NCBI GenBank assembly: GCA_938022935.1
Contig: CALIHL010000211.1
Location: forward strand, 1-33,476
Length of the DNA: 33,476 nucleotides
Direction: 5' to 3'
Origin: an uncultured Saprospiraceae bacterium
GTDB lineage: Bacteria; Bacteroidota; Bacteroidia; Chitinophagales; Saprospiraceae
Of the stretch, positions 3,988-25,791 are shown piece after piece. How positions within the stretch are numbered: position 1 is the stretch's first letter; each line of letters opens with the position of its first letter. The translations under genes were made by a program, and so were the position numbers. The notes beneath the pieces were generated by a model, which did not search any database, had not been told where the DNA came from, and worked only from the letters and a program-made list of their open reading frames with translations.

Positions 3988-6045
3988 TCAATTGACTAAA
4001 ACCTCATCAATAAACAACCAGCTCTTGCCGCCAGGATTTGGATGCCATTCTGGATTATTCAATTGGCTCTTCACTTTTATCTTGACATATCTGGCCACTT
4101 CAGGTTCAAATGATTCCGTAAAGTTTTTCATTGAAGGTGCTGGCGCTTTTTCTTCTCTTTCGAAAGAAGTCTCTTTCTGAAACGTATAATTTGAGCCATC
4201 TTTTGAAGTCCAGATCGTCATACCTGTTGGATAAAAGATCCAAGATCCAAATGCATCTAAAGCACTTATGCTTACACTTGATATCTCTTCTGTTTTCCCT
4301 AAGTCTAAGACAGCGTTCATATGCTTCCCTTCAAAGCCAAGCCAGTTACCATCAGTAAAAGCGCTGGTCCCTTTTTTGAAATCAGTGATAGTCTTGCCAC
4401 CTTCACCTTTGTATTTATCAGCTGGCTTGGTATTGAGCGCTACATTTGCGACAGTATACTTAGCTTGTATAAATTGCTTCTCAGCAACCTCGCTACTTCC
4501 CCAACCTTCTTTAGAGCTGATTACTTTTATTAAGGCGGAGTTGTTGATTGTAAAAGGATCAGTGTACTTCAATGATAAACTATCCGGTTCGCTACCATCT
4601 ACTGTGTAGTAGAAGTCAACGTTCTTAAAGTTTAAGTCAAACTCTATCTCTAAAGAATCTTTAAAGATGTCCTTCTTTGCAACGATGAGTGGCGGTCTAA
4701 GGGATGCATCTCCAAAGATGCCATCGTCTTGTTGGAAGGTGATGTCCAGCAGAGGTTTTTGAGTTTGAAGTTGAGCCACTCCTTCAGTTGTTAGTTTAGT
4801 TTGCCAGAGATAAACGGACTGAAGAGCGGGTAACGCGGCTAATGCCTCCACAATATCATCAGTTACGTCGGTATCATAAAGGTTGAGCGTCTTTAGATAC
4901 TTCAACTTGGATAGGCTCTTGACTGTTTCATCTGTGATTTGTGTGCCTTGCAATTGGAGGTTACGCAGGTTCTTTAAAGATGATAAGGAAGAGAGCATCT
5001 TGTCCGTAACATTGGAAAACCCAAGATCAAGAATAGAAACTTGATCATTTACACTTTTTAAGTTTTGTATAGTTGACTTGGTAAGATCTTTTCGATGAGA
5101 TAGACTTACATCTATAAATGGACTTTCTTTAGAAAGTGTATTCGCGACAATACCTGCAGATAATAAAGTTGCCATCTTGGATGCCGTTGGCATTTCTACT
5201 TCAAGACTAAAGTAGTTGTCTTTAGCTTGAGCATATTTGTCAAGTATGGCACTAATCTTTTCTGATGGTTTTAATGATCCTATAGAAGCGTCATATGAAG
5301 CGCCCTCATTGATCCACCATTCTATCAATGATATCTCATCTTCTGAAAGTTGTTTCTTGCTCTTAGGAGGCATGTGTTCTTTCTCCTCCAGTGGCAGATG
5401 AATCCTTTGGATCATCGTACTTTTTTTCGCATCGCCGGCAACATAGATTACTCCGTTTTTACCTCCAAGTGCTAAACGTTCTGGAGATGTCATCATCAAG
5501 TCTCCTTTAGTTTTAGACTCATTGTGACAAGAGACACATTTTTTCTTTAAGATAGGCTGGATGATGTCTTTATAAGCCAGAGCGCTATTGATATCTACAA
5601 TATTGCTGGCTTCGTTTTGCTCTTGGTCACGCCATAAAAATCCATCGCCATGAGTAATGCTTCCTCCCTGATGCCCAGTTATGGTAAGTAACACAATGAC
5701 CAAGCAGAAGGAGGGAAAATATAATTTGCTCTTTTCTGGGCCTTGTTTCTTTTGTAAGAAGTAAAGTGCACCTGACGCGATGGTCATGGCTATAGCCAGA
5801 TATTTATGCTGATCTACAAGTTCTCCTTGGTAGTCGCCTGTTTCTGCAAGGATGTATCCTGTGATACATGTGCCGATTGAGATAACAAACCCAGACAGTA
5901 ATCCCAAGTTTATAGAAACACGATAATCGTCAGTCTTTTTTAATCTTGAGATGATCTCAAGTAGAAATACAAATAGAAATATACCAATCGGCAAATGCAG
6001 AATAACTGGATGAAATCTACCTATGAAGTCAAAGGTCTCTATCAT
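3988..6045 (-). CDS. Membrane-anchored cytochrome c / leucine-rich repeat / chitobiase-C-like chimera
   Basis: 685 aa in four parts. Residues 1-127 hold four membrane segments (about 12-33, 46-66, 82-98, 108-126) with DUF2231-like FHPVILHLPIG and membrane-edge histidines His12, His17, His80 and His125. Residues 158-250 are a planctomycete-type cytochrome c (PSCyt1): CVSCH at 170-174 binds haem c covalently and HMPP near 224 is a likely distal Met. Residues 330-440 contain leucine-rich repeats (LRNLQLQGTQITDE, LKTLNLYDTDVTDD). Residues 450-527 resemble the chitobiase/hexosaminidase C-terminal domain, and 530-685 an F5/8-type-C-like jelly roll ending WLFIDEVLVN. The last two parts are homologous to the end of the sialidase upstream (2-base gap). 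A role in periplasmic electron transfer plus sugar or surface binding is inference. Confidence 0.8.
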   Translation of the reverse strand: MIETFDFIGRFHPVILHLPIGIFLFVFLLEIISRLKKTDDYRVSINLGLLSGFVISIGTCITGYILAETGDYQGELVDQHKYLAIAMTIASGALYFLQKKQGPEKSKLYFPSFCLVIVLLTITGHQGGSITHGDGFLWRDQEQNEASNIVDINSALAYKDIIQPILKKKCVSCHNESKTKGDLMMTSPERLALGGKNGVIYVAGDAKKSTMIQRIHLPLEEKEHMPPKSKKQLSEDEISLIEWWINEGASYDASIGSLKPSEKISAILDKYAQAKDNYFSLEVEMPTASKMATLLSAGIVANTLSKESPFIDVSLSHRKDLTKSTIQNLKSVNDQVSILDLGFSNVTDKMLSSLSSLKNLRNLQLQGTQITDETVKSLSKLKYLKTLNLYDTDVTDDIVEALAALPALQSVYLWQTKLTTEGVAQLQTQKPLLDITFQQDDGIFGDASLRPPLIVAKKDIFKDSLEIEFDLNFKNVDFYYTVDGSEPDSLSLKYTDPFTINNSALIKVISSKEGWGSSEVAEKQFIQAKYTVANVALNTKPADKYKGEGGKTITDFKKGTSAFTDGNWLGFEGKHMNAVLDLGKTEEISSVSISALDAFGSWIFYPTGMTIWTSKDGSNYTFQKETSFEREEKAPAPSMKNFTESFEPEVARYVKIKVKSQLNNPEWHPNPGGKSWLFIDEVLVN

Positions 6046-6047
6046 TG

Positions 6048-7991
6048 TTATTCAACGATTATTTCATCAATAAATAACCAAGCAGGAGTACCTTTTCCTT
6101 GGTGCCATTCAGGTAGTTTGTTCAAGGCTGTGATAGATATGAACAACTCATCAGTTGTAACATCTTGAAGAGGGACTTCGATATATTTTGATTCTGGAGA
6201 CAATTCCTTTTGAGGTATATCTACTTTTGTTGTATAAGACATGCCATTTATATCAACAGTTACTTCCGTAGGTAAGAATATCCATTGGCTATTGGCAGAG
6301 AGTGCGCTGAGCTTCACTTTGCTTATGTTCTTTTTCTTTTTTAAACTGACATGCACTTGCACAGTGCCGCCTTCAAAACCCATCCATTCTCCATTGCTAA
6401 AGCTGGTAGTGCCTTTGATCATATCAAAAAGAGAGTAGGGGCCACCACCTTGATATTTAGAAGAAGGCTGACGAGATAACGTTACTTCTTTTACATCTTT
6501 TAATTGTGAGGCTTTTGTAAAAGTGACACTTGTTATATCACTTTTCTTGGCATCAGGATGTATAGCAAGCGCTTTGAGCATGCATGATTGATCTATTGAT
6601 ATCTGATTGGTATATTGCTTACTTGAAGTGTTAGGTGTTGTGCCGTCAGTTGTATAGTAGATCTTTCTGCCTGGATAGTCCAAGTCAAAAGTAACAGCTA
6701 TATTTTCTTGAAAAAGAGAAGATGAGAATCGAGGTATAGGCTTAGAAAGTTTGAGTTGATTGGATTGTACAACACTTGGATTAATGACCTTTTTTACCCA
6801 AGCCTTCTTACTATAATTTTCTCCACCTAAGAGCCACTCCATATTGAAAGAAGCGTAATGGATGCCTTCATTATTGCCATGCTCATAAAGCACACCAATG
6901 TCATCATTGTCTTGGATGACGAGATCAGAATAAGCAGACTCACCAGTTCTAACTGTGCGCTTGACCGGCCATGATTGACCTTGGTCGAAACTCATTTTTA
7001 TAGTTAGATTCTCTCTTCTTTTCTTGCTTTCTGGATTAGAGAATAAAATAACCTCCCGTCCTGTAGAAAGTGTATGAGAGATGATGCTCGCTTGGCAGAC
7101 TGGAGAGATCAATGTGCTATCAAAGTAAGTCTCTGACCATGTCGCTCCACCGTCATGACTTTTTGCAACAAGCCTATGTCTCTTTTCTCCGTTTTGCTGT
7201 CTGATGTTTTGCATGATGCTGCCATCTGGTAGTTCTACTGCTATTGATTCGTTAGAGCTTGGTATATCTACGTTTTCTGTAAGCTGCCAAGTTTCGCCAT
7301 GATCATCGCTGTAGAATGCATGTGCTCTATAATCATTGAAGCCTGATTGCGGTTCTCCTTCTGAGTGATTGGCAGGTATAAAGAGTCTTCCTTTATGACT
7401 TCCTTTTTTTAATTGTATCGCATGGCCAGGTGTATTGGCATATGATCTCCAGTCTTCTTTAAAGTTATAGTCTCGGTTTAGATCAGGACGTCGTGGCTTG
7501 TGCACGGATAGAGTGATATCCGTTGGGGCAGACCAAGTGTTGCCAAAGTCCGTACTGGTGATATACAGTATATTTCTCAATCCTTGTCCCAATCTTGTCT
7601 CATGTTCAGATGCGATACCGTTATTATAAACTAAGAATATCCGACCATCCTTGTATCGTGGATCCAAGAGGTCCTCTACGGGAGCTGGATTTCCAGATTG
7701 TAACGATCCGTTGTCTGCAACAACCTTGAGGTTACTCCATGTCTGACCGTTGTCCTTACTGGTTTTTGAAACAATATCCACATCACCAAAGTCATTACAT
7801 CCACTTACGCGTCCTTCTGCAAAAGCAAGGAGATGGCCATTAGACACTTTTATAATAGCAGGTATCCTAAAACAAGCATAGCCGTCTGATCCGTTTCTAA
7901 ATATCGGTTGCTCTTGAAATGACTGTACGTCTTGACTAATACCAACAAAACATACAAGTTGGGCGATAAGAATGTAGAGTACACTTTTCAT
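6048..7991 (-). CDS. Exo-alpha-sialidase (GH33-like) with C-terminal carbohydrate-associated modules
   Basis: 647 aa. Signal peptide at residues 1-19. The six-bladed sialidase fold is shown by the RIP motif (CFRIPAI, Arg42), AEGR (Arg61) with Asp70, and five Asp boxes near residues 78-85 (SKDNGQTW), 147-153, 229-235, 279-285 and 335-341. Candidate catalytic or binding residues are Glu253 (VELPDG), Arg264, Tyr354 (SAYSDL) and Glu370 (LYE). The family releases terminal sialic acids; the exact sialic or nonulosonic acid cannot be told. Residues about 418-492 form a chitobiase-C-like domain and 497-647 an F5/8-C-like domain, shared with the next gene. It starts directly at the stop of the NHL gene. 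No sialic-acid catabolic genes (nan) lie in the window. Confidence 0.88.
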   Translation of the reverse strand: MKSVLYILIAQLVCFVGISQDVQSFQEQPIFRNGSDGYACFRIPAIIKVSNGHLLAFAEGRVSGCNDFGDVDIVSKTSKDNGQTWSNLKVVADNGSLQSGNPAPVEDLLDPRYKDGRIFLVYNNGIASEHETRLGQGLRNILYITSTDFGNTWSAPTDITLSVHKPRRPDLNRDYNFKEDWRSYANTPGHAIQLKKGSHKGRLFIPANHSEGEPQSGFNDYRAHAFYSDDHGETWQLTENVDIPSSNESIAVELPDGSIMQNIRQQNGEKRHRLVAKSHDGGATWSETYFDSTLISPVCQASIISHTLSTGREVILFSNPESKKRRENLTIKMSFDQGQSWPVKRTVRTGESAYSDLVIQDNDDIGVLYEHGNNEGIHYASFNMEWLLGGENYSKKAWVKKVINPSVVQSNQLKLSKPIPRFSSSLFQENIAVTFDLDYPGRKIYYTTDGTTPNTSSKQYTNQISIDQSCMLKALAIHPDAKKSDITSVTFTKASQLKDVKEVTLSRQPSSKYQGGGPYSLFDMIKGTTSFSNGEWMGFEGGTVQVHVSLKKKKNISKVKLSALSANSQWIFLPTEVTVDINGMSYTTKVDIPQKELSPESKYIEVPLQDVTTDELFISITALNKLPEWHQGKGTPAWLFIDEIIVE

Positions 7992-9026
7992 TTATACTCT
8001 CATTAGTTTTATCGGGTAAGACTGACCTGAGTTCCATTGGCAGACATAGATATCTTCATTCTTATCAACGCATACATCATGTGGATGCTTGAATAACTGA
8101 AGAGCTTGATGCATATGGTTTAATTGACCTTTGTTATAAATTGGTGTACTTCCTCCGGGAGCAGAGATGAGCTTGTCATTTTCGTCAAGGATAGATATAA
8201 AGCCAGTGTTGTTACCGCGATCGTTGGACCATATTGTAGCCAAGTAGATGTTATCGCCATGTATGACAGGTCTACAGATGTAAGCTCCAGGGAGATCGAT
8301 CTTAGAGATGTACTCGCCCGACATTGTATACCTTTTAAGTTGGTTTCTATTGCGATCGGTGATCAGTAAGATTGGATCTTTTCCATTTCTCGTATCTATA
8401 CAGATGCCGTGTGCATTGTCTAACGAAGCATCATCTGTACCTCTGCCTCCAAAAGTGTTTTTCAATTTGCCTTTAGCATCATAATGAAGGATATATTGGG
8501 CACCATAGCCATCTGCGACATAGATGTCACCATTGTCGGCTATAGTTGTCTCCGTTGGATCATACTCTTTCGCTTCTTTATAAAGTCCACTTTCTTTTGG
8601 ATATTCCATTGTCATCACAACTCTACCATCCAATGTTGTTTTTACAACTTTGTGAAGGTTTGTATCTGTGATGTATAGAAACTCTTCTCCTCCTTCATCT
8701 CTAAGAGTTAAGCCATGAGCACCTGGAAACTCACTACCCCAGACTTCGATTAAGTTGCCCCCTGAATCATAGATGATGACATTGTTCTTGGTATGATTGG
8801 TCAACATGATGATACGGGCTTTGGCATCGATGACCATTTCGTGACAATCTTTAACCGGATGTGTTCTTGGATTGAGCGCACCCCAGTCTAGGTCTATCTT
8901 GTATTGATGTGATCCATGACCGATTATTAAATCTTTCAAATTATAATCTTTGTTGAGCGGACTCCAATTACTTGATAGTCCAGCAGCTGCTATACCTGTA
9001 TTGATTATAAAGTCTCTTCTCCTCAT
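7992..9026 (-). CDS. NHL-repeat beta-propeller protein with Tat-type signal
   Basis: 344 aa. The start MRRRDFIINTGIAAAG has a twin-arginine motif and a modest hydrophobic stretch, so export by the Tat system is likely. The rest is built of NHL-type blades: HGLTLRDEGGEEFLYITDT, NGDIYVADGYGAQYILHYD, HGICIDTRNGKDPILLITD and HPHDVCVDKNEDIYVCQW. Related proteins are often annotated as peptidyl-hydroxyglycine lyase-like or 6-bladed propellers, and such annotation gives no reliable reaction. Proteins of this type commonly sit beside DUF1501/DUF1553 genes, as here: it begins 1 base after the DUF1501 stop and ends against the sialidase start. A ligand-binding or scaffold role is inference. Confidence 0.8.
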   Translation of the reverse strand: MRRRDFIINTGIAAAGLSSNWSPLNKDYNLKDLIIGHGSHQYKIDLDWGALNPRTHPVKDCHEMVIDAKARIIMLTNHTKNNVIIYDSGGNLIEVWGSEFPGAHGLTLRDEGGEEFLYITDTNLHKVVKTTLDGRVVMTMEYPKESGLYKEAKEYDPTETTIADNGDIYVADGYGAQYILHYDAKGKLKNTFGGRGTDDASLDNAHGICIDTRNGKDPILLITDRNRNQLKRYTMSGEYISKIDLPGAYICRPVIHGDNIYLATIWSNDRGNNTGFISILDENDKLISAPGGSTPIYNKGQLNHMHQALQLFKHPHDVCVDKNEDIYVCQWNSGQSYPIKLMRV

Positions 9027-9027
9027 T

Positions 9028-10506
9028 CTATGCTAATATGTCATTGACAACCTTGCCATGAACGTCGGTCAGGCGGAATCTTCTTCCTTGGTACTTATAA
9101 GTAAACTTCTCATGATCGATGCCCAGGAGATGAAGCATTGTGGCTTGGAAGTCATGTACATGTACAGGTTTGTCTACGATATTATACCCGAACTCATCAG
9201 TTTGTCCATACACCATGCCTGGCTTGATACCTCCTCCTGCCATCCAGATGCTAAAGCATCGTGGGTGATGATCTCGACCATAGTTAGTATCTGTAAGTGC
9301 ACCTTGTGAGTAATTAGTTCTTCCAAACTCTCCTCCCCAGATGACCAAGGTATCGTCCAACATACCTCTTTGTTTGAGATCCATGATCAGTGCAGCAGAG
9401 GCTTGGTCAACATCTTTGGCTTGCTTAGCTATTGCTCCGGGTAAGTTGTCATGATGATCCCAACCCATGTGGTACAATTGTATAAACTTGACATCTTGTT
9501 CTGCAAGTCTTCTTGCCAGTAGGCAGTTGGCTGCAAAGGTGCCCGGTTGTGTAGAATCAGGGCCGTACATTTTATATATATGGTCTGGCTCATTTTCTAT
9601 GTTCATGACATCAGGTACAGAAGTCTGCATTCTGTATGCCATCTCATATTGAGCGATGCGACTGCTGATCTCAGGATCTCCAAACTCTTGTAGTTGCTGA
9701 TCATTGAGGGCTGCGACCTTGTCTAACATAGACCTTCGGCTCTCTCTGGTAACACCGATTGGGTCATTGAGATAGAGTACAGGGTCTTTGCCTGATCTAA
9801 ACTGTACACCTTGATGGAGAGAATGTAAAAAGCCATTGCCCCATAATCGAGAGTATAGGGGTTGCCCCTGTGGACGTCCAGTTCCTCTTGAAAGAAGTAC
9901 AGTGAAAGATGGTAAGTTTTGATTATCACTTCCTAAGCCATAGCTCAGCCAGGATCCTATACTTGGGCGTCCTGGTTGTTGTGATCCAGTTTGGAAAAAT
10001 GTAATCGCTGGATCGTGGTTGATCGCTTCTGTATACATCGAGTTGACGATGCAGATCTCATCTGCTACTTTAGCTGTGTAGGGTAGAATCTCACTTATAT
10101 AAGCGCCACTCTGTCCATGTTGACCAAATTTAAATATTGATCCAGCCAAAGGAAAAGAATCTTGACCTGAAGTCATGCCAGTTAGTCGTTGTCCTTTTCT
10201 GATAGACTCTGGGAGATCCTCACCCATTCGCTTTACAAGCGTAGGTTTATAATCGAATAATTCTAATTGTGATGGCCCACCGCTTTGAAAAAGATAGATG
10301 ACTCGCTTGGCTTTTGGGGCTAAGTGCATATGATCCAATATCCCTCTTGAGCTTTCAGCTATCCCATCTGTTCCTGGGGAAGACATACACCCTGGTCCAA
10401 AAAGGGAAGCCAGTGCAGCGGTGCCTATGCCAACACTGCTCTTTGATAAAAAGGATCTCCTGTTCATCAAGTAAGCTTGCTCGTCTAATATCTTTTTATG
10501 TCCCAT
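9028..10506 (-). CDS. DUF1501 domain protein, Tat-exported
   Basis: 492 aa. The signal lies in residues 14-40 ([20 protein letters not shown], twin arginine); Met14 could be the real start. DUF1501 (PF07394) hallmarks include [37 protein letters not shown]-type text, [28 protein letters not shown], and [15 protein letters not shown] near the end. By family the fold belongs with alkaline phosphatase/sulfatase-like proteins. The many His and Asp residues fit metal sites, but no activity is established for the family as far as I know. It almost always travels with a DUF1549/DUF1553 partner, here 1 base upstream, which implies a shared complex or pathway. Confidence 0.9.
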
Positions 10507-10507
10507 A

Positions 10508-12856
10508 TCAACCTCTGGTTATCGTCTCATCAAGATTCATGATCGCACTTGCAACAGAAGCGTATGCTGCAAATACAGAAGTGTCGACATCGATTCTATC
10601 AATTGTAAAGTTTCCAATTGATAGATACTCTTCAGCCGCTTTTTCATTGTTAGTATACCTTTCTAACTCTTCGTCATAATACGATCTAAGCACACCAACT
10701 TCTTCTTGGTTTGGAGTTCTGGAGGTGGCTAGTTGGAACATATATGAGATTCTATCTTCAGTGGAATTGCCCATTTTATCTATGCTACGCGCTGCTAACA
10801 TGCGAGCGGCTTCTACTATCTGAGGATCGTTAAGCAGAACAAGTGCTTGTAGTGGTGTGCTCGTGTTTTGTCGCTTGACAGTGCAAAGGTCACGAGAAGC
10901 AGCATCAAATGTCATCATGCTCGGTGGTGGAACTGTACGCTTCCAAAAAGTATAAATGCTGCGCCTGTATAGGCCTTCTTCGCTGTCTTCTACATACTTG
11001 GCTGTACTTCCTCCTCCGCCACCGGTGGTCTCTTGCCAGAGACCTTTTGGCTGGTATGGTTTTACACTTGGACCTCCAACTTCTGCCACTAAGAGATCGC
11101 TTATTTTGAGTTCATGATCTCTTATCATTTCTGCGTGAAGTCTTAGTCTAGTGGCTCTTGCCAGTAATCTATTTTCAGGATCTAATTCTAAAAGATCCTG
11201 ATCTATATTGGTCGCTTGCTGATAGGTTGCTGACATCATCATATATTTCAATATCTCTTTTATGTTCCAGCCTTCATTTTGAAATTTTAAAGCCAAGTGA
11301 TCCAAGAGTTCTGGATGTGAGGGTAGTGACCCTTGATTGCCAAAGTCATAAGATGAAGCGACAATACCTGTCCCAAATAATTGTTGCCAATATCTATTGA
11401 CTGCAACTCTTGCTGTCAACGGATGGTCTGGTGAAAACAGCCATTTTGAAAGTCCAAGTCTATTAGATTCGTATTCTTTTCCAAATTGTAATATGCTCTC
11501 AGGGGTATTGGGCTGGACTGGTGTTGTTGGTTTGTCGTAAGCACCTCGGTTGAGTATGTGAGCTTGCCTTGGTTTGTCCATATCTTTCATCACCATATAG
11601 GTGATCTCACCGACAGAATCCAAGGTGTTTATAAAGTCTACTTTTTCTTTGATAACTTCATCTGTTAAAGTAATCGTAGGCTCTGCTTTTTGCCCACCAC
11701 CAACAAATCCTTCTTCAGGCACATTGTTGAAAAAACTATAAAGTTCGTAGTAGTTTTTTTGTGAGAGCGGATCGTATTTGTGATCGTGGCACTTTGCACA
11801 TTCCATGGTTAGTCCTAAGAACGCTGTCGCAAATGTATTGGTTCGATCAGATACATACTCAACTCGGTATTCTTCAGGGATGACACCACCTTCATTGGTG
11901 ATTTTGTGATTGCGATTAAAGCCGGTTGCAATCACTTGCTCTAAGCTTGCATCAGGCAACATATCACCAGCGATTTGCCAAGTCACAAACTCATCAAAAG
12001 GAAGATTCTTTTGATATGCATGTATCACCCAGTCTCTCCATGGCCAATTAAACCTTTCAAAGTCATCTTGGTATCCATTGGTATCAGAGTATCTTGATAT
12101 GTCAAGCCAGTCAGCTGTCATGCGTTCGGCATAAGCAACAGTAGATAGCAGATGATCTATCACTTTTTCAAAAGCGGTTTCAGTCTCATCATTGACGAAA
12201 GCTTCTACTTCTTCTATGCTCGGAGGTAATCCCGTGAGATCAAAGTATGCTCTACGGATCAGGTGTTCTTTTTTTGCCTTGGATGAAGGTTGTAGGTTAT
12301 AAGACTCTATTTTGGAGAGCACATAATTATCAATGTCATTTTCAACCCAAGTTTGATTGTTGACTGATGGTGATGATGACTCTGCTGGTTTTATAAATGC
12401 CCAATGATCCGTCCATTCTGCTCCTTGATTGATCCACTTTTTTAGTATTTCCTTTTCTGTTTCACTAAGCGACAGATTTGATTCTGGAGGTGGCATAACG
12501 TCATCCATGTTGTCTGTGTAGATCCTTTGGATCAAGTGACTGCTATCAGCGCTTCCAGCTATGATTGCATATCGATCTTTGTTTTCACCAAGTCCAGCAA
12601 AAGCGAATTCTTTTAAGTGAAAAGCTAAGTCAGCTTCTCTCGTGCCTTCATCTGGACCATGACAAGTAAAGCATCTATCAGATAGGATAGGCTTAACATG
12701 AAAGTTGAAGTCAACTACATCCGGTACCACTTCTCCTAATACACCAGCTCTGGAGTTATCATCAAGAGATTTACTATTGTTGGTGCAACTTGCCAATGCC
12801 CAGATTAGTAGGATAATGGCAACACTAACTTTTATATGTAGTCCTTTTTCGATCAA
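10508..12856 (-). CDS. PSCyt1-DUF1549-DUF1553 secreted cytochrome lipoprotein
   Basis: 782 aa. Lipoprotein signal with lipobox LASC (Cys24). PSCyt1 domain at about 50-150 with CFTCH (Cys62, Cys65, His66) for covalent haem c and DDVMPPP near 118-124 as probable Met ligand. DUF1549 at about 172-380 ([35 protein letters not shown]) contains a second haem motif CAKCH (353-357). DUF1553 at about 475-740 ([25 protein letters not shown]). This architecture is very common in Planctomycetes and occurs in some Bacteroidota; its function is unknown. The two CxxCH motifs mean it needs periplasmic cytochrome maturation. It is tightly followed by its usual partner DUF1501. Confidence 0.9.
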
Positions 12857-12866
12857 TGTTTTTCTA

Positions 12867-15758
12867 TTATACGTTTAAGATATCGTTCTTTTTTATAAAA
12901 GCCACAATTTCGCTGATATACCCAAAAGCTATGGCTATAGATGTATCCGCTGCCCCGTAATAGATAGCTATGCGATCACCATCTTCGATAGAGGCGCAAG
13001 GGAAGATAACATTGGGTACATCACCAGATTGTTCGTACTGAGCTGCTGGAGATAAGAGGTAAGCCCCCGAGCGATATAAGACAACTGAAGGGTCATCTTC
13101 TTTTAGTATAGATCCGCCCATCGCATATCTAAACCCGTTACAAGTTTGTATAACACCATGATAAAGTATCAACCATCCTTCACTGGTTAATACGGGCACT
13201 GCTCCTGCACCAATCTTTTTAGATTGCCATGCACTTACTTCAAAGTCTGAGACCTTCATGACGATCCTATGTTCGCCCCAGTATTTCATGTCAGGACTAT
13301 AGCTGACATAGATATCACCAAAGGCTGTGTGACCATTATCGCTGGGTCTGCTGAGTAAGGCGTATTTCCCATTTATCTTTTTGGGAAACAAGACACCGTT
13401 CCGATTATATGGGAGGAAGGCGTTCTCACATTGAAAGTAATCTTTGAAGTTGTAAGTATAAGCGACTCCGATGGTTGGGCCGTGATAACCATTGCACCAT
13501 GTCACCCAGTAGGTGTCGTCGATCTTTGTCACACGAGGGTCATACTTGTAGTCCGAGTGTAGCATGTTAGTATTGCCGGCTTGCATTTTTATGGGGTCAT
13601 GCTCGATCTCCCAATGGATGCCATCTTTACTGAATCCCGTATGGATATTCATCCTTACATTCTTATCATCACATCTGAACACACCGGCATAACCATCTTG
13701 ATATCTTACAACTGCACTGTTAAATATGCTGTTAGAAGAAGGTATGTCATAACGGCCAACGATAGGGTTATTCTTGTATCGCCATACTACATCTGCATCT
13801 TTAGAGTGTCGGTCTTGCCATGGCATGTGCGGTGCGTTCTTTGTAGTACCTGATATTGCTGCTGATACTATGGTTGCAGCGTTTAAGGCGTGCGTGTCTC
13901 GGTTTGCACTTGTGGGTTCGTTCATAGGAACAATTGAAAGTGTTGAAAGTTTGTCGTACCAGTTTCTTTTTAAAAAGATGGTTGCTATTGCAAATGTTAT
14001 AAATGCGATAATGAAACTGCTACCGTTTTTTAGAATTAGAAAAATCGGCATCACAGTAAGTGTAGTCTGCCATGCTATGCCAACTAGAACATTGATGCTA
14101 TCTTGTTTTAGATTTGGGTTTGCTTTAAACGAAGAATTAGATTTTTGAATGTGGTTGACTACAGGTTTCCAAAATCCCCAAGGGTATGATATTTTATAAA
14201 AGTCAGCTAAGACGTTTATGTCTTGAGGTTCGGTCATTAGTGTGCCCAGTATAGATCCAGCAAATGAAGCTAAAAGTATAGCAGGGAATAAATAGATAGC
14301 AGAAACATCTGGTAATAATGCCGGTAGTAAAGTCGATGCGATCAGTCCTGCAAGCATACCGAAGAAATAACCATATCCGTTGAATCTCCACCATAGCCAT
14401 TTTAAAACATTTGCGGCAGCGTAACCGCCATACAAAGCAGAAGTAATCCAAAGGGTTAGAGAGTTGATAGATTCAACAAAAAAACCAAAGAATAAACCAA
14501 TAACAACAATACCCAAAGAAGAATAATAGCTATACCTGACATAGGTTCTGTCTGTTGCATTAGGGTTGATATACTTTTTATAAAAGTCATTGACAACATA
14601 GGCTGGTGCTGCATTGATAAAAGCTGCGAATGTACTCATAAAAGCGGCTAATAGCCCAGCCAGTAAGAGTCCCTTGAAACCGATTGGTATAAATCGATCA
14701 ATTGCAATTGGAAGAATGGTTTCAAAGTCAATATTAGAACCCATGCTTTCAAATTCTGGGGTGAGATAAACCACAGCCAGAACACCAAAACCAGCGATCA
14801 TAAAGTATCTTGGAAAGTACAATGCTAACATCGTAAGTCCGCTCATCTTCGCTGACTCCATCGGTGTCTTAGTTGACAATACTCTTTGCATGTCATAGCT
14901 CGGCACGGGGCCAGCCATACTTGCAAAAACACCTTTAAACAACATCATCATAAATAGATAACCGAAGAGTTGAAAACCATCAGTTTCTATTTTAGTATTG
15001 ACAGCATCTAGATAGCCTGTCCAGTCTAAGTCCAGCTGCCAAGAAAAGAACAAATCCTCCCACCCTGATGGGACAGCATTGATGATCTGATCTCTAGAAA
15101 CAGAAGTAAGTGCTATTATGCCAACAACGACGCAAGAGATTGTCATGATAAAGAACTGAAGCACTTCAGTAAGTACCACGCTGTACATGCCACCGGTGAT
15201 CACGTAGACAGTTGTGATTAGAATAATAAGTAGGGCATAGGAGTGCTCCGAGGTAAGATTGATAAGCTCAGTTGTTACTGATAAATCCCAAGGGAAAAAT
15301 ACAGTTGCGAACTTGCCAATGCCAACGAAAAAGTAAGCTATAAATCCAAATACACTGATGATGGCAAAGAAAGTGACAATCATATGTGATAGACGCGCCC
15401 CTCTATCATTGCCAAATCTGTGGGTGATCCACTCGGCACCTGTAAGTACGTTGGACCTCCTAAGCCATATCGCCATGAAGATCATGATGAAGACTTGGTT
15501 CCATACCGGCCACAGCCATGGAAGCCAAGTGCTTTGCGCTCCGTAGACAAAAAACAATGTCACCAGCCACATGGTACCGGAGACATCGAACATGCCAGAA
15601 GCATTGGACAGTCCTAAGTAATACCATGAGATCTCATTGTCTCCGAGGAAGTAAGAGCGTAAACTTTTAGAAGCTTTCTTTGACACCCAAAAGCCAAGGC
15701 AAACTGTGATGATTAGGTAACACAGTATAATGCCAAGGTCTAATGGATGAAAGTGCAT
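12867..15758 (-). CDS. Sodium:solute symporter (SSS) fused to a GH130-family domain
   Basis: 963 aa. Residues 1 to about 610 are an SSS-family Na+/solute symporter with roughly 14-15 membrane segments (start [46 protein letters not shown]). After a polar linker (about 612-644), residues 645-963 are a full-length GH130 domain: [81 protein letters not shown]130 enzymes are beta-mannoside phosphorylases or beta-1,2-mannosidases; which of these cannot be told here. With no signal before it, the domain should face the cytoplasm. The frame is open throughout, so the fusion looks genuine. Transport coupled to cleavage or phosphorolysis is inference. Confidence 0.87.
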
Positions 15759-15831: not shown

Positions 15832-17343
15832 TTAATTTACATCCCACCATACTGGCGCAGACATATATGTCGAGAAATCATTGCTCAATCCTTGAGCTGT
15901 TTTAGCAGCTTCAAATGGCTCTCTTCCTGATTCACCTGCAGGATAAGAAAGTCTCTTGGGTATCTGTCCGTTTGTTACATTGCCAGGATAGTTTACGGGC
16001 GTAAGAGCTGGAAAGCCAGATCTTCTCATATTAGAGAAAGCTTCGTATTCATTTAAGAATGTTGCCATCCAATACTCGTATCCTATTTGTTCCATAGCGT
16101 TGCCTGCATCAAAAGCATTTGCCGCAAGGTATCCGTCGATAGCCTCTTGAGGGGCAGCTAATGAAGCATCATAGTGAGCCCACATACCCATGGCATTAGC
16201 AACACCTTGATTGAAATAAGCTTCAGCGTCACCACCAGTCCATCCCCTCATAGAAGCCTCTGCTGCCAAGAGCTGTGCTTCTCCACTGGTCATGAACATC
16301 ATCGGAGAAGAAACAGAAACTATCATTGGATTGATTCTGTCAAAATCATTGATATTAGTACCCGTAGGATTATCAGCTATCGTTGTCTCATCAAGACCAT
16401 TAGGGAGACCATTATGGCCACCACCGTTCTCTGGAGTAACACCGATAATATCTAATCTTGGATCAGCTCTTTCCAATAGCCCATTAACTAATGTTGCGCT
16501 CAATCGAGGACAATCATCTCCAAAACCATTGCTCTTATCTAAAACTTCTCCCAATCCATTACGATTGACACCAGCGGGTCCATTTGTATGTTCTAAAAAG
16601 GCGTCATCACTATTATCTGTCATAATACCTCCAGAGATTGCCTTGCCAGCAAATGATTGCGCTGTTCCTGCATCAACTTCTGAAACTCTCATAGCTAATC
16701 TAAGCATCATTGAGTTGCCAAACTTTCTCCATTTATCAACATCACCGCCAAAGATAAGATCAGCACTTCCGAAGCCGCCCGAGCCAAGTTGGCCAACTGC
16801 AGATTCTAATTCACTAAGCATATCCATATAGATGGATTGTTGAGAATCGTACTTTGGGAAGTCTATCCCAGCAATCGATCCAAGACCAGCTTCGCTGTAA
16901 GGGATATCTCCATACAAGTCAGTTAGTCTATGGAAGATAACAGTGCGCCAGATCCTTGCCATGCCTAACATTGTCTGATCACCAACTTCTCCTTGTTCAA
17001 GTGTGTTAATCAGATCTTGCATGTCCTTCACTTGCTCTGTATATGCACGGTCAAAGAGCGAAGAGTTATAACCTCCATTAAATGTGTATTTGTCTCCATT
17101 CCAATAGCCACAAAGTGCGGCCATGTGTTGGTTGATCATCGAAGAGTAGATTAAGCCTGCTCTCCAGTTTTCATATCGTCCACCAGAAGTTCTAAGTTGT
17201 ACTCTGGAAAATTGAAATCCAGGGTCTATATCTATTGCAACTGTTGGGTTTGTATTTATTTCTGCAAAGTTGTCGTCACAAGAAGTTGTGAAGAGAAACA
17301 TCGAAATAAGCAGTACACCGATTTTATATGATATTTTATTCAT
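15832..17343 (-). CDS. SusD/RagB-type outer-membrane glycan-binding lipoprotein
   Basis: 503 aa. Lipoprotein signal residues 1-21 with Cys22 (LFTTSCDDNFAEINTNP, the classic SusD-like start). The body follows the SusD-like family that binds oligosaccharide at the SusC mouth: WRAGLIYSSMINQHMA, MARIWRTVIFHRLTDLYGDIPYSEA, FGNSMMLRLAMRV, the late MTSGEAQLLAAEASMRGW helix, and QIGYEYWMATFLNEYEAFSNMRRSGFP at the C-terminus. It lies 18 bases after susC. Substrate cannot be read from sequence; the downstream sialidase and GH130 suggest a sialylated or mannose-containing glycan. Confidence 0.93.
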   Translation of the reverse strand: MNKISYKIGVLLISMFLFTTSCDDNFAEINTNPTVAIDIDPGFQFSRVQLRTSGGRYENWRAGLIYSSMINQHMAALCGYWNGDKYTFNGGYNSSLFDRAYTEQVKDMQDLINTLEQGEVGDQTMLGMARIWRTVIFHRLTDLYGDIPYSEAGLGSIAGIDFPKYDSQQSIYMDMLSELESAVGQLGSGGFGSADLIFGGDVDKWRKFGNSMMLRLAMRVSEVDAGTAQSFAGKAISGGIMTDNSDDAFLEHTNGPAGVNRNGLGEVLDKSNGFGDDCPRLSATLVNGLLERADPRLDIIGVTPENGGGHNGLPNGLDETTIADNPTGTNINDFDRINPMIVSVSSPMMFMTSGEAQLLAAEASMRGWTGGDAEAYFNQGVANAMGMWAHYDASLAAPQEAIDGYLAANAFDAGNAMEQIGYEYWMATFLNEYEAFSNMRRSGFPALTPVNYPGNVTNGQIPKRLSYPAGESGREPFEAAKTAQGLSNDFSTYMSAPVWWDVN

Positions 17344-17361: not shown

Positions 17362-20300
17362 TTAGAATTTAAGCTTAAGGTTCAAGCCAAATGATCTTGT
17401 CACTGGAACACCAAACATTTCAAGTCCTTGTCCGTTACCTGTTGTGTAGGTAGATTCTGGATCTATGTTTGTCGTGTTCTTAGAAAGGATCAGTAGGTTT
17501 CTACCCGCAAATGATAATGAGCCTGATGCAAAAGGAAGTTTTTCTGTAAGACTACTTGGCAAGTTATAGCTAACTATAATCTCACGTAGTTTTACAAAAT
17601 TTGCATTTTCTACAAATTGCTCAGATATACCAAATGCTATACGTTGGTAGTAATCTTCAACGTTTTCTGAAGAGACAGCTCCTATTCCTGATTCTCTTCC
17701 TTCAAGCGTTTCTTGATGCAAACCTCTGAAGTATCCATATGCATTCGTTGCATTATAGATCATTGCTCCTCTCTTCATGTCTAATAAGAAGCTAGCTCCA
17801 AAGTTTCCAAAAGTAAAGCTGTTGTTGATTCCAATTGTTGTTGGGTGTACACCAGTTCCAAATGTTCTAAGTGCTCCTTGAACGGGCAATCCATTTTCAT
17901 CTACCGTTATATTACCACTGCCATCTCTTTCATATTCAAAAGCCATGACTTGGCTATATGGAAGTCCTTCTACTAAGTGGATATATGCATTACGTGTACG
18001 ACTCTCTTGAAGTCTAATCTCCTCTCCATCATTTTCTGGAGTTAAAAGACTCTCAACATTATTCGTATTGTGTGCTAAATTAAGACCTAAAGTCCAAGCA
18101 AAGTTGTTATTGACGACAGGCTGCACTTCTATAAATGCCTCAATACCTTTGTTAGTTATTTTTCCAACATTGACAGTCTTAGAACCAAATCCTGAAGCGG
18201 CTGATATGGAAGCACTCAGTATACCATCTGTTGTTTCTCTCGTATAGTATGCAAGATCAGCATGAACTTTTCCTTTGAACATTCTGACATCTACACCTAC
18301 TTCAAGTTCAGTATTTGTTGATGGCACAAGTCCTAATGGTGGTACAGAGTTATTGTTGATGCCTCCAAGTGGTTGGCCTAAATGACCTTGGTCAAATATG
18401 CCATAGGTCAATCCTAACTGGTACGGATTAGTGGATCCTCCGACCTGTGCCCATGATGCCCTTACTTTTGCAAAGTCAACTACGCTGGGTAATTCTAAAC
18501 CATTGGCAAGATCATATGCTAATCCAACTGATGGATAGAATATTGAGTTTTTAGATTCTGCACCGTTTGGATCCGTTAAAGCAGAGAACCAATCCTGTCT
18601 ACCTGTAACAGTAAGGTACAACGCGCTATTGACAGAAAATTCTGCCTGGCCAAAAACTGAGTTTACTTGAAATTGTGTAAATCCATATGATACACTTTGA
18701 TTTGCTAAGTTTCTAAGTGTATGAAGGAATGGAACATTGAAGTTGCTACCGCCACCACCTAAGAGTTCGTTAGAGTTCTTTTGTTGGTTGCCTCCCACCA
18801 ATAGGTTGATGCCAAAATTATCATTAATGTCTTTTATGTAATTAAGAGTTGCCTCAAGATTTACTTCTTGTACATTTCTATTTGATTCGCTTAGCTGACC
18901 TAATGTGCTGAAAGCTGTACCATAGGGTGTCAAGTTTCTTCTTGATTCTGTGAAGCGATCAATTCCAACTTTACCACCAAGCGTCAGACCATCTATGATT
19001 TCATAACCTACATTGATGTTCCCGAATACACGGTTTTTCCTATTGTTTGCTTGAAATTGATGAGCAGCCCAATATGGGTTGGTCACAAATACATTATCAT
19101 TAAATTGTAACTCTGCTCCTGCGGCATTGGCTCCTGGCTTGTTAGGATCACCAATCATATCTTCTATATTGATGCTCGGAGGAAGTGACCATGCAGTATA
19201 ATTTGCATTTCCTGGGGAGTCAGAAAGTCGTGGTCTATTGTTTACTCCTTCAATTACAAAAGATCCACTGATGCCAGCAGTAAATTTGCCATGAGCGATA
19301 CTTGTGTTAGTTGAAAAGGTTTTTCTATCCAAGTCTGAGTTAGGTAGAATTCCCTTGTTATCTAAGTTGGTAAATGAAAATCTAAAATTGTGATTATCAC
19401 CACCTCCTGATAATGAGAGTGAATTTGTAAATGTTGAACCACCTCTATAAAAACGTCCAAGATTGTCACCGGTTGCTGAGTAAGGTCTTGACTCACCGTC
19501 AAATTGAATAACCGAACTTCCATCAAGTGGAGCGCCCCATGCATATAATCCTTGTGCAAATGCTTCTTCAACGGTAGATGGCTTAGCGCCATTTCGTCCA
19601 TGGCCATACTGTTGTTGGAAGTCATAGTTGTCGATGATGCTCTCTGCTTGAAAGTTACTATTGAACTCTACATTGAGTCCTCCTTTTTTTCCTTTTTTAG
19701 TTGTGATTAGTATGACGCCGTTATCTGCTCGATAGCCGTATAAGGCACCTGCAGTATTACCTTTAAGTACAGTCATGGACTCTACATCATCGGCGTTTAC
19801 ACTACTGAGGCCATCGCCCCAATCATTTCCACCCCACATACCTGCAGATCCAAGGTTGTCGTTGTTGATCGGTACTCCATCGACAACGATGAGCGGTTGG
19901 TTGTTACCACTGATGTTGCTGTTACCACGGATAACGATTCTACTTGAACCACCAGCTCCTGTCGCTGGGTTGCTTACATTCACACCTGCTACTTTGCCAG
20001 CCAGTGCATTTCCAATGTTGACTTCTTTAGCTGTGGCAACACTCGAACCATCGAGTTCTCCAACAGCGTAAGCCAATGCTCGTTTTTTTCTTCCGATACC
20101 CAATGCAGTTACGACGACTTCATCAAGGTATTCTCCTTCTACCATCGCGATATCAATGTAGGATTGGTTGCCTACAGCGATCTCTTGACTTTGAAATCCA
20201 GAATAGGATACGACGAGTATGCCGCCGTCTTGTACATCAAGAGAAAAGGTACCATCGATATCAGATATCGTTCCGTTACCGGTTCCCTTTTCTAAGATGT

Positions 20301-20418
20301 TAACCCCGATGAGCACATCGCCATCGGCAGTTTTGACTATCCCAGTTACTGTCTTTTGACCAAACAATGATGCGGTCATAAAGAGTAGTGGGATAATAAG
20401 TTTAGATAGTTTTAACAT
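17362..20418 (-). CDS. SusC/RagA-family TonB-linked outer-membrane transporter
   Basis: 1018 aa. Signal peptide residues 1-20 (FMTASLFGQ). A carboxypeptidase-regulatory-like domain follows at about 24-95 (VTGIVKTADGDVLIGVNI), with DEVVVTALG as the TonB-box-type segment. The plug (about 115-240) carries GKVAGVNVSNP, RIVIRGNSNISG and PLIVVDGVPINN. The remaining approximately 780 residues are the 22-strand barrel, ending in the usual aromatic C-terminus (SFGLNLKLKF). It imports oligosaccharides or other large solutes using TonB energy, with the SusD lid encoded next. As first gene of the unit, it lies 125 bases from the divergent LacI gene, so the palindrome there probably controls it. Confidence 0.95.
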   Translation of the reverse strand: MLKLSKLIIPLLFMTASLFGQKTVTGIVKTADGDVLIGVNILEKGTGNGTISDIDGTFSLDVQDGGILVVSYSGFQSQEIAVGNQSYIDIAMVEGEYLDEVVVTALGIGRKKRALAYAVGELDGSSVATAKEVNIGNALAGKVAGVNVSNPATGAGGSSRIVIRGNSNISGNNQPLIVVDGVPINNDNLGSAGMWGGNDWGDGLSSVNADDVESMTVLKGNTAGALYGYRADNGVILITTKKGKKGGLNVEFNSNFQAESIIDNYDFQQQYGHGRNGAKPSTVEEAFAQGLYAWGAPLDGSSVIQFDGESRPYSATGDNLGRFYRGGSTFTNSLSLSGGGDNHNFRFSFTNLDNKGILPNSDLDRKTFSTNTSIAHGKFTAGISGSFVIEGVNNRPRLSDSPGNANYTAWSLPPSINIEDMIGDPNKPGANAAGAELQFNDNVFVTNPYWAAHQFQANNRKNRVFGNINVGYEIIDGLTLGGKVGIDRFTESRRNLTPYGTAFSTLGQLSESNRNVQEVNLEATLNYIKDINDNFGINLLVGGNQQKNSNELLGGGGSNFNVPFLHTLRNLANQSVSYGFTQFQVNSVFGQAEFSVNSALYLTVTGRQDWFSALTDPNGAESKNSIFYPSVGLAYDLANGLELPSVVDFAKVRASWAQVGGSTNPYQLGLTYGIFDQGHLGQPLGGINNNSVPPLGLVPSTNTELEVGVDVRMFKGKVHADLAYYTRETTDGILSASISAASGFGSKTVNVGKITNKGIEAFIEVQPVVNNNFAWTLGLNLAHNTNNVESLLTPENDGEEIRLQESRTRNAYIHLVEGLPYSQVMAFEYERDGSGNITVDENGLPVQGALRTFGTGVHPTTIGINNSFTFGNFGASFLLDMKRGAMIYNATNAYGYFRGLHQETLEGRESGIGAVSSENVEDYYQRIAFGISEQFVENANFVKLREIIVSYNLPSSLTEKLPFASGSLSFAGRNLLILSKNTTNIDPESTYTTGNGQGLEMFGVPVTRSFGLNLKLKF

Positions 20419-23998: not shown

Positions 23999-24463
23999 CT
24001 ACTTAAAAGTGTACTTATTCTGTAGGAAGTAACTGTAGCCGACCGAGAGGACAATTGTAAGTATCCTCGATGGCGTTGGGTAAAAGTGAAGTAAATCGAC
24101 AAAAAACTTTATAGCCACGTAGCTGACTAAGATGCCACTAACAGATACCATAAAGTACCTGGAGAACTGAATAGGGGTTTTCAGTGTGGAGTCTGGAAAC
24201 GCGATATATTTGTTTAATCCAAAGCCTGATAAAAACGTGATTGGGTATACAAAGAATAGTGATGCAACATGTGAGCTAAGCGTTACAATCTTTAAGTCTA
24301 AGTCTTGCTTTTGAAAAACAAAATGAAAGAAGACGTAATAAAGAACTACGTCAAGTACAAGATTGCCTCCGCCGCATACGGCATATCTGTAAGTCTTTAA
24401 AGGCATGAAGGATTTAAAGATAAAGTAGAAGGTGTCTATGATTGTAATGAAAAGATCCTTCAC
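23999..24463 (-). CDS. GtrA-like membrane protein
   Basis: 154 aa, with four membrane segments at about residues 28-47, 57-80, 101-122 and 132-148. It matches the GtrA-like pattern: LKTYRYAVCGGGNLVLDVVL at the first helix, FLSGFGLNKYIAF after the second, and NKYTF at the C-terminus. GtrA proteins are thought to move lipid-linked sugars across the inner membrane for glycosylation of surface polymers. The start ATG overlaps the helicase stop (ATGA, 24460-24463), so the two are translationally coupled, though no functional link is evident. Confidence 0.82.
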   Translation of the reverse strand: MKDLFITIIDTFYFIFKSFMPLKTYRYAVCGGGNLVLDVVLYYVFFHFVFQKQDLDLKIVTLSSHVASLFFVYPITFLSGFGLNKYIAFPDSTLKTPIQFSRYFMVSVSGILVSYVAIKFFVDLLHFYPTPSRILTIVLSVGYSYFLQNKYTFK

Positions 24464-25791
24464 CTTCTCCAGAAATTATAAAAGTCAATAATCCGCTCGT
24501 CAACCATGATATCTCTTGGTGTGAGCGGTTGCTTAAGTTGTACACCATGCAATGTCTTACATCTACTGAGCGCTACGTATGTTTGTCCAAACTCAAATGC
24601 ACCACCAGTCATATCGATAAACACTTTTTCAAATGTCTTTCCTTGACTTTTGTGTATCGTCATAGCCCAAGCCAACTTCAATGGATACTGCTCAAATGAC
24701 CCAATGACATCAGCTTCGACGGACTTTTTAGCATCGTCCCATTTGTACTTGATCATTTCCCAAGTAGACTTTTCTAATTCTATGCGATGTACATCTTCGG
24801 CTTCATCTACAATCTCTAAGACAAGATGGTCTATTCCGATTTCAACGATATGTCCTATCGACCCATTTACATATTTCCGTTGAGGGTCATTCTTGAGGGT
24901 CATCACTTGGGCGCCTTTTTTTAAGACTAAGTTAGATTCTGTAGGGTAGACCTTTTGGTCAAACATGCCTTTCACCAAAGCGTAAAAACTGATCCCTTCG
25001 GATTCCAATTCATTCAGTCTGTCTTTATTGATTTGGTTAGCTGTGTCATTTCTCGTTGTAAGCGTGATGCTACCATGTTGTACTTCTTCGCCTTCTTCAA
25101 GAACGCGATGGTTTAGATCTTCTAAGTCTTCCCAGTCGATGGCTTTAGATCTGATTTGATCCAATATGTTGATAAAGTGCCTTTCACTTTGTCTATAGAC
25201 TGTATTCAGCTCTATGATTTCCATCTCGTACATGATGGACTTGTAAGCTCTTGAAGAAAAGAAGTAGGGCGTCTTGTAGCGCTCGGCTAGGTACTTGCGT
25301 TCGAAGTCACTCGCTACAACCGGAGGCAATTGGAACAAATCTCCAAACACGATGACCCTCACGCCACCAAACGGTGCATTCACTTCACGATTGATCCTCA
25401 AGAAGAGATCTATGTTTTCAAACATGTCAGCACGTACCATAGATATTTCATCTATGATCAGTACTTCGAGGTTCTTATATAGCCTCCTGTTTTTGACTTT
25501 CTGTATATCATGAGGAGCCAGGAGCCGTGGCGCAAACTTGAAGAACGAATGTATCGTTTGCCCCGAGACATTAAGCGCTGCGACGCCAGTCGGAGCAACT
25601 ACTGCTATTCTCTTTCTGCTTGTAGATCTAAAGAGCTGGAGTAGAGTAGATTTACCTGTTCCTGCTCGCCCTGATATGAAGACGCTTTTACCCGAATGCT
25701 CTAGTGTATCCAGCGCATACTTCAGCTCGTGACTCAGCGTCAGCGGCTGCTTACTCAGAGAGTTGACATCTGTTTTCTGTGGTAGACTCAA
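24460..25791 (-). CDS. PIF1-like / RecD-type ATP-dependent DNA helicase
   Basis: 443 aa. Walker A SGRAGTGKSTLLQLF (about 40-54), PTGVAALNVSGQTIHSFF (motif Ia region), Walker B LIIDEISMVRADMF, GDLFQLPPV (motif III), and C-terminal LAWAMTIHKSQGKTF with FGQTYVALSRC (motifs V/VI) define an SF1B helicase of the PIF1/AAA_30 type. The family unwinds 5'-3' and acts in repair, replication-fork or G-quadruplex processing. Length is usual for compact bacterial PIF1-like proteins. It is the first gene of a pair with GtrA. A strong terminator at 25877-25908 separates it from the 67-aa gene upstream. Confidence 0.88.
   Translation of the reverse strand: MSLPQKTDVNSLSKQPLTLSHELKYALDTLEHSGKSVFISGRAGTGKSTLLQLFRSTSRKRIAVVAPTGVAALNVSGQTIHSFFKFAPRLLAPHDIQKVKNRRLYKNLEVLIIDEISMVRADMFENIDLFLRINREVNAPFGGVRVIVFGDLFQLPPVVASDFERKYLAERYKTPYFFSSRAYKSIMYEMEIIELNTVYRQSERHFINILDQIRSKAIDWEDLEDLNHRVLEEGEEVQHGSITLTTRNDTANQINKDRLNELESEGISFYALVKGMFDQKVYPTESNLVLKKGAQVMTLKNDPQRKYVNGSIGHIVEIGIDHLVLEIVDEAEDVHRIELEKSTWEMIKYKWDDAKKSVEADVIGSFEQYPLKLAWAMTIHKSQGKTFEKVFIDMTGGAFEFGQTYVALSRCKTLHGVQLKQPLTPRDIMVDERIIDFYNFWRR

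Follow-up and report, generated by a model that had tools for sequence, protein, structure and literature searches.

A DUF2231-PSCyt1 protein, probably the membrane-side electron-transfer partner of DUF1549/DUF1553 cytochromes

The PSCyt1, PSCyt2 and PSD1 families (PF07635, PF07583 and PF07587) were described in Verrucomicrobia; the sections of that paper dealing with them call their functions unknown and report that the proteins carry carbohydrate-associated and F5/8 modules and adjoin further gene families of unknown function (He et al., 2017; PMC5615132). The locus analysed here shares with those systems the PSCyt1 haem c domain, the association with carbohydrate and F5/8 modules and the position of a PSCyt2 gene beside a second unknown family. 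It differs in having a membrane-anchored PSCyt1 domain in a protein without PSCyt2/PSD1, and the same sections mention no DUF2231 membrane partner, fusion or co-occurrence. Periplasmic oxidation of glycosides by a membrane-bound system is known from the LacABC-type sugar 3-dehydrogenases, which occur with DUF1080 hydrolases in Bacteroidetes and elsewhere (PMC9007349). In the present case the enzyme would instead be the PSCyt2/PSD1 protein, and neither a GMC-type dehydrogenase nor DUF1080 was among the Pfam matches of the genes scanned in the window (the whole stretch of 33 476 nucleotides that was analysed). Prokaryotic cytochrome b561 (PF01292) acting with a soluble cytochrome c offers another functional parallel, a membrane redox module plus a periplasmic c haem. 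The protein described below, however, has no b561 match by Pfam or by fold, and its candidate ligand histidines all lie on a single face of the membrane, while the haems of b561 proteins are placed towards both. Literature searches found no published description of the DUF2231-PSCyt1 architecture.

The window corresponds to contig C211 in a draft genome assigned to Saprospiraceae on the basis of a sister locus that is 77% identical. An intact open reading frame of 685 codons with an ATG start occupies positions 3988-6045 on the minus strand and is the eighth and last gene of a minus-strand operon headed by SusC/SusD. In order, the operon encodes a SusC/RagA TonB-dependent transporter (17362-20418), a SusD-like outer-membrane lipoprotein (15832-17343), a sodium:solute symporter-GH130 fusion (12867-15758), the partner cytochrome PSCyt1-PSCyt2(DUF1549)-PSD1(DUF1553) (10508-12856), a DUF1501 protein (9028-10506), an NHL beta-propeller protein (7992-9026), a BNR sialidase-type, GH33-like protein with a CHB-F5/8 tail of its own (6048-7991) and finally the DUF2231-PSCyt1 protein. 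The intergenic gaps, counted from SusC, are 18, 73, 10, 1, 1, 0 and 2 bp.

The DUF2231 module (residues 1-137, positions 5635-6045) is followed by the PSCyt1 haem c domain (residues 155-252, 5290-5583) with its CVSCH attachment motif (residues 170-174, 5524-5538), by four to five leucine-rich repeats of about 24 residues (residues 336-436, 4738-5040), by an Fn3_assoc/CHB_HEX_C_1 domain (residues 467-524, 4474-4647) and by an F5/8-type C domain (residues ~540-685, 3991-4428), all on the minus strand. Pfam scores exceeded the cut-offs for PSCyt1 (residues 169-227, 45.3 bits against 22), Fn3_assoc (467-524, 45.4 against 23), CHB_HEX_C_1 (467-520, 41.7 against 22) and F5_F8_type_C (563-663, 34.6 against 28.2). 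In the single-protein scan the repeats fell slightly short (LRR_4, 26.8 bits against 27, 6e-6; LRR_6, 22.6 against 23.4, 1e-4), with two relatives passing the LRR_4 cut-off. DUF2231 (PF09990) scored 26.3 bits against 26.4 in that scan, 30.4 bits at the identical place in a genome profile search, and 51.6 and 40.0 bits, well above the cut-off, in two fused relatives. DUF1549 and DUF1553 were not found by Pfam in the 685-residue protein; the neighbouring partner has both, and so do the fused relatives. The single multi-domain protein of 685 residues proposed in an earlier note on this DNA is thus borne out, on the minus strand, which that note did not give. The term chimeric misleads here: this is an old architecture, whose full form is kept in about 30 Bacteroidota genera. 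A shorter DUF2231-PSCyt1-LRR form of 450-530 residues occurs in this same genome (contig C204), in Flavobacteriaceae and elsewhere, including plasmids of Haliscomenobacter and of the gammaproteobacterium Catenovulum, where the NCBI label is `c-type cytochrome domain-containing protein'.

Alignment of the N-terminal parts of 51 relatives shows nine invariant residues (His12, His17, His80, His125, His132, Cys170, Cys173, His174 and Met225), whereas column identity averages 36% in a 48-row alignment. The first four histidines had been singled out earlier as conserved-looking; His132 had been overlooked. The CxxCH motif is that of the haem c domain already proposed, and Met225, within an MPP motif, is likely to be the distal haem ligand. 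The PSCyt1 domain profile matches the haem c domains of FoxE and hydrazine synthase alpha, the genome carries cytochrome c assembly genes, and the protein is predicted to be a haem c carrier. An AlphaFold2 model of residues 1-264 (mean pLDDT 91) shows the expected four transmembrane helices (12-35, 42-68, 75-99 and 104-132). Positive charges lie in regions 36-41 and 98-107, with none in loop 69-74. This distribution makes a periplasmic position of both termini most likely, which the haem c domain also needs, and the five histidines would then sit where helices 1, 3 and 4 end on the periplasmic side. Calculated from helix rise, and not measured as distances, the depth is about 7.5 Å for His17 and His80 and about 10.5 Å for His125, with His12 and His132 at the rim. 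The earlier note had asked of such a model whether the histidines could face each other as haem b ligands. They are not scattered but share one periplasmic face; a match to haem b proteins in the PDB is absent. A Foldseek search of the PDB with the model gave no match at E<=0.001 (the top hit, with E 0.4, was a KCNQ1 model), which leaves a b561-like fold without support. The invariant CxxCH, the methionine and the clustered histidines support the idea of an inner-membrane electron-transfer device.

In the partner, both CxxCH motifs, one Met and His123, His331 and His486 (numbering of the modelled fragment) are invariant, His331 following the second haem motif, a stretch of 12 residues. The partner is very strongly conserved: a 29-row alignment has a mean column identity of 62%, and many of its Arg, Asp, Glu, His and Trp residues do not vary. 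Its sequence suggests that it is an enzyme; a PDB fold search with its model (pLDDT 81) gave no match. It appears to be a lipoprotein: a strict lipobox is present in 18 of 38 PSCyt2 proteins, and the partner in the window has LASC. The DUF1501 protein is almost constant in the cassette and the NHL protein frequent; a twin-arginine motif, which both carry in the window, was found in 58 of 58 DUF1501 proteins examined and in 23 of 26 NHL proteins.

That the DUF2231-PSCyt1 protein might serve the DUF1549/DUF1553 cytochrome as its electron exit had been suggested before, and the suggestion is strengthened by adjacency, by fusion and by phylogenetic profile. A same-strand PSCyt2/PSD1 gene lies within 9 kb at 28 of 30 full-length loci, and a DUF1501 gene is present at 29 of them; the corresponding counts for the LRR-only loci, several of which lie at contig ends, are 11 and 12 of 15. 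At 18 loci DUF2231, PSCyt1, DUF1549 and DUF1553 form one polypeptide, with DUF2231 partial in one (L052) and DUF1501 adjoining in 17; the fusion was checked with Pfam for two proteins. The 17 fused proteins with complete DUF2231 form one clade in the tree. Among 61 relatives, DUF2231-PSCyt1 occurs in all 18 genomes with PSCyt2 and in none of the 43 without. In a phylum sample of 396 Bacteroidota genomes the figures are 46 of 49 and 0 of 347; this profile was obtained by comparing two genome lists by reading, and a Fisher test was applied. The three genomes with PSCyt2 but without DUF2231-PSCyt1 were searched again: two have a divergent PSCyt2 of 619-625 residues and one is a draft. As each of the three architectures is near a single origin in the tree, the loci do not count as independent events, and the evidence is weaker than the Fisher values imply. 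Distance matrices of the two partners correlate with r = 0.64 overall and 0.73 for full-length loci (best of 1000 shuffles, 0.25), which partly reflects shared species history. This genome has five PSCyt2 genes versus two for DUF2231-PSCyt1, some PSCyt2 genes being far from any DUF2231 gene. As PSCyt2 genes often outnumber their counterparts in this way, several PSCyt2 proteins may share one membrane partner. PSCyt2/DUF1501 pairs without an adjoining DUF2231 gene occur on a Singulisphaera plasmid. In the cultured relative Haliscomenobacter hydrossis the cassette is plasmid-borne. Of the two fused proteins encoded at 4748-7576 of L116 and 5732-8152 of L114, the longer has a match to a GH2-type sugar-binding domain inside the DUF1553 region.

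The C-terminal tail is shared with glycosidases. Residues 449-685 match the C-terminus of the Bacteroides GH20 beta-hexosaminidase 6q63 (residues 563-774, E 3e-28), the F5/8 module included, and are 32% identical to the tail of the neighbouring sialidase; Trp568, Trp667, His668 and Trp676 are conserved with glycosidase tails. In 6q63 and the GH33-like neighbour the tail follows a hydrolase, whereas here it follows a membrane cytochrome. It is a putative carbohydrate-binding module. The tail is found at all 28 loci at which the PSCyt2 partner runs from DUF1549 to DUF1553 without an insert, and at none of the 11 at which an insert of 240-410 residues separates the two; of eight inserts scanned, seven are Laminin_G_3 and one is CBM_6-like. 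According to the tree this trade-off is a single ancient switch that was then inherited, and repeated independent origins were discarded since one switch suffices. The trade-off points to a single complex in which either subunit may carry the lectin-like part. Exchange of tails between neighbours within genomes was ruled out, the cytochrome tails clustering apart from those of neighbours. In small samples, genes for GH92, GH20, GH18, BNR, sulfatase, CBM9 and SusD proteins lie near full-length loci and chiefly housekeeping genes near LRR-only loci.

The reading that we favour, with a probability of roughly 0.6, is that the 685-residue protein anchors a periplasmic complex in the inner membrane and acts as its electron-transfer subunit, the probable catalytic part being the PSCyt1-DUF1549-DUF1553 protein with DUF1501. 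Electrons from an imported glycan fragment would enter the two c haems of the partner (we infer this direction), pass to the PSCyt1 haem of the DUF2231-PSCyt1 protein and from there, through the periplasmic-face histidine cluster of the DUF2231 bundle, reach the quinone pool or some other acceptor in the membrane. The leucine-rich repeats are a probable docking part for the partner, a role that covalent linkage would take over in the fused lineage. The CHB-F5/8 tail would be the counterpart of the lectin-like insert carried by the partner in the LRR-only lineage, positioning substrate or subunits.

For the cofactor of the bundle, haem b is cautiously favoured over copper, in view of the tethered haem c and of a single locus on a Saccharobesus litoralis plasmid (L187, NZ_CP026605.1). 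There, genes for DUF1549-DUF1553 and DUF1501 are followed (8857-14806) by cytochrome c' and a b561-type cytochrome b, the latter in the cassette position taken elsewhere by DUF2231-PSCyt1. This pair is a possible non-homologous replacement, although it is one case and c'/b561 pairs are common on their own. The same cassette adjoins two GH88 genes and pectate lyase genes. A less probable reading is that the bundle holds copper or another metal, either as a copper-dependent electron relay or as an anchor with a metal site that keeps the haem c domain at the membrane. Stand-alone DUF2231 proteins, which match the profile and lack a haem c domain, share His12, His17, His80 and mostly His132 with the cytochrome-linked form. 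All those examined on plasmids of Sphingomonas, Sphingobium, Asticcacaulis and Criblamydia (L176, L177, L178 and L179) are encoded in copper-resistance clusters with multicopper oxidase, CopB, CopC, CopD, DUF411, DUF305 and a four-helix copper protein, and two from Saprospirales (L180 and L182) have neighbours of heavy-metal type, as judged by eye from sequence. The fifth histidine, His125, is nevertheless kept in the cytochrome-linked form and absent from most stand-alone forms seen, and in the Saccharobesus lineage it is a b-type cytochrome that fills the position. The CopD-type membrane proteins of copper clusters are, moreover, often tied to b-type cytochromes, which we count against copper.

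Electrons might also run the other way, quinol reducing the DUF2231-PSCyt1 protein and this in turn the PSCyt2 haem for an O2- or peroxide-dependent attack on the glycan of oxygenase- or peroxidase-like type. The invariant His331 behind the second haem motif of the partner, together with His123 and His486, would fit a catalytic site with a haem or a metal, and the genome has COX1 of a haem-copper oxidase and therefore probably respires oxygen. We think this direction rather unlikely: the partner model has no fold match in the PDB, and dehydrogenases just as normally have a chain of c haems that ends at the membrane. Still more improbable is a structural or vestigial haem in a protein acting mainly as a periplasmic scaffold, the repeats and the F5/8 domain holding glycosidases such as the sialidase near the membrane. 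An adjacent sialidase or short protein does carry the CHB-F5/8 module at 15 of 30 full-length loci (0 of 15 LRR-only loci), but CxxCH, Met225 and all the membrane histidines are invariant in 51 of 51 sequences, and the LRR-only and fused forms, which have no tail, still possess the redox parts together with the PSCyt2 partner.

On the favoured reading, that of an electron-transfer subunit, the DUF2231-PSCyt1 protein is probably the membrane-side partner of DUF1549/DUF1553 cytochromes. A broader proposal, which we make only tentatively, is that it represents a new kind of membrane electron-transfer subunit, with four helices, a one-sided five-histidine cofactor site and a tethered haem c, and that it is the obligate partner of a large class of glycan-oxidizing periplasmic cytochromes, PSCyt2/PSD1-DUF1501, across Bacteroidota. 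If so, sugar breakdown at PSCyt2/PSD1 loci would feed the respiratory chain directly. Environmental bacteria have large numbers of PSCyt2/PSD1 proteins, which belong to polysaccharide loci; the near-constant membrane partner and the natural fusions show experimenters what to coexpress and which gene to delete, and a vague pattern of cytochromes near sugars becomes a testable respiratory-complex hypothesis.

Some further genes may be recorded. At positions 6028-6891 of one locus (L062), and at 11 similar loci, a secreted or lipoprotein-like protein of about 275-300 residues, consisting of barely more than a CHB-F5/8 module, is encoded directly upstream of the cytochrome gene. In the window, a PIF1-like helicase (24460-25791, minus strand) with a GtrA/DPMS-type membrane protein beside it is unrelated to the glycan operon, as is that neighbour. 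The symporter-GH130 fusion of the operon has 963 residues, with the symporter at residues 35-470 and the GH130 domain at 639-955; it may couple sugar import to phosphorolysis, and it is also present in the sister genome (L037).
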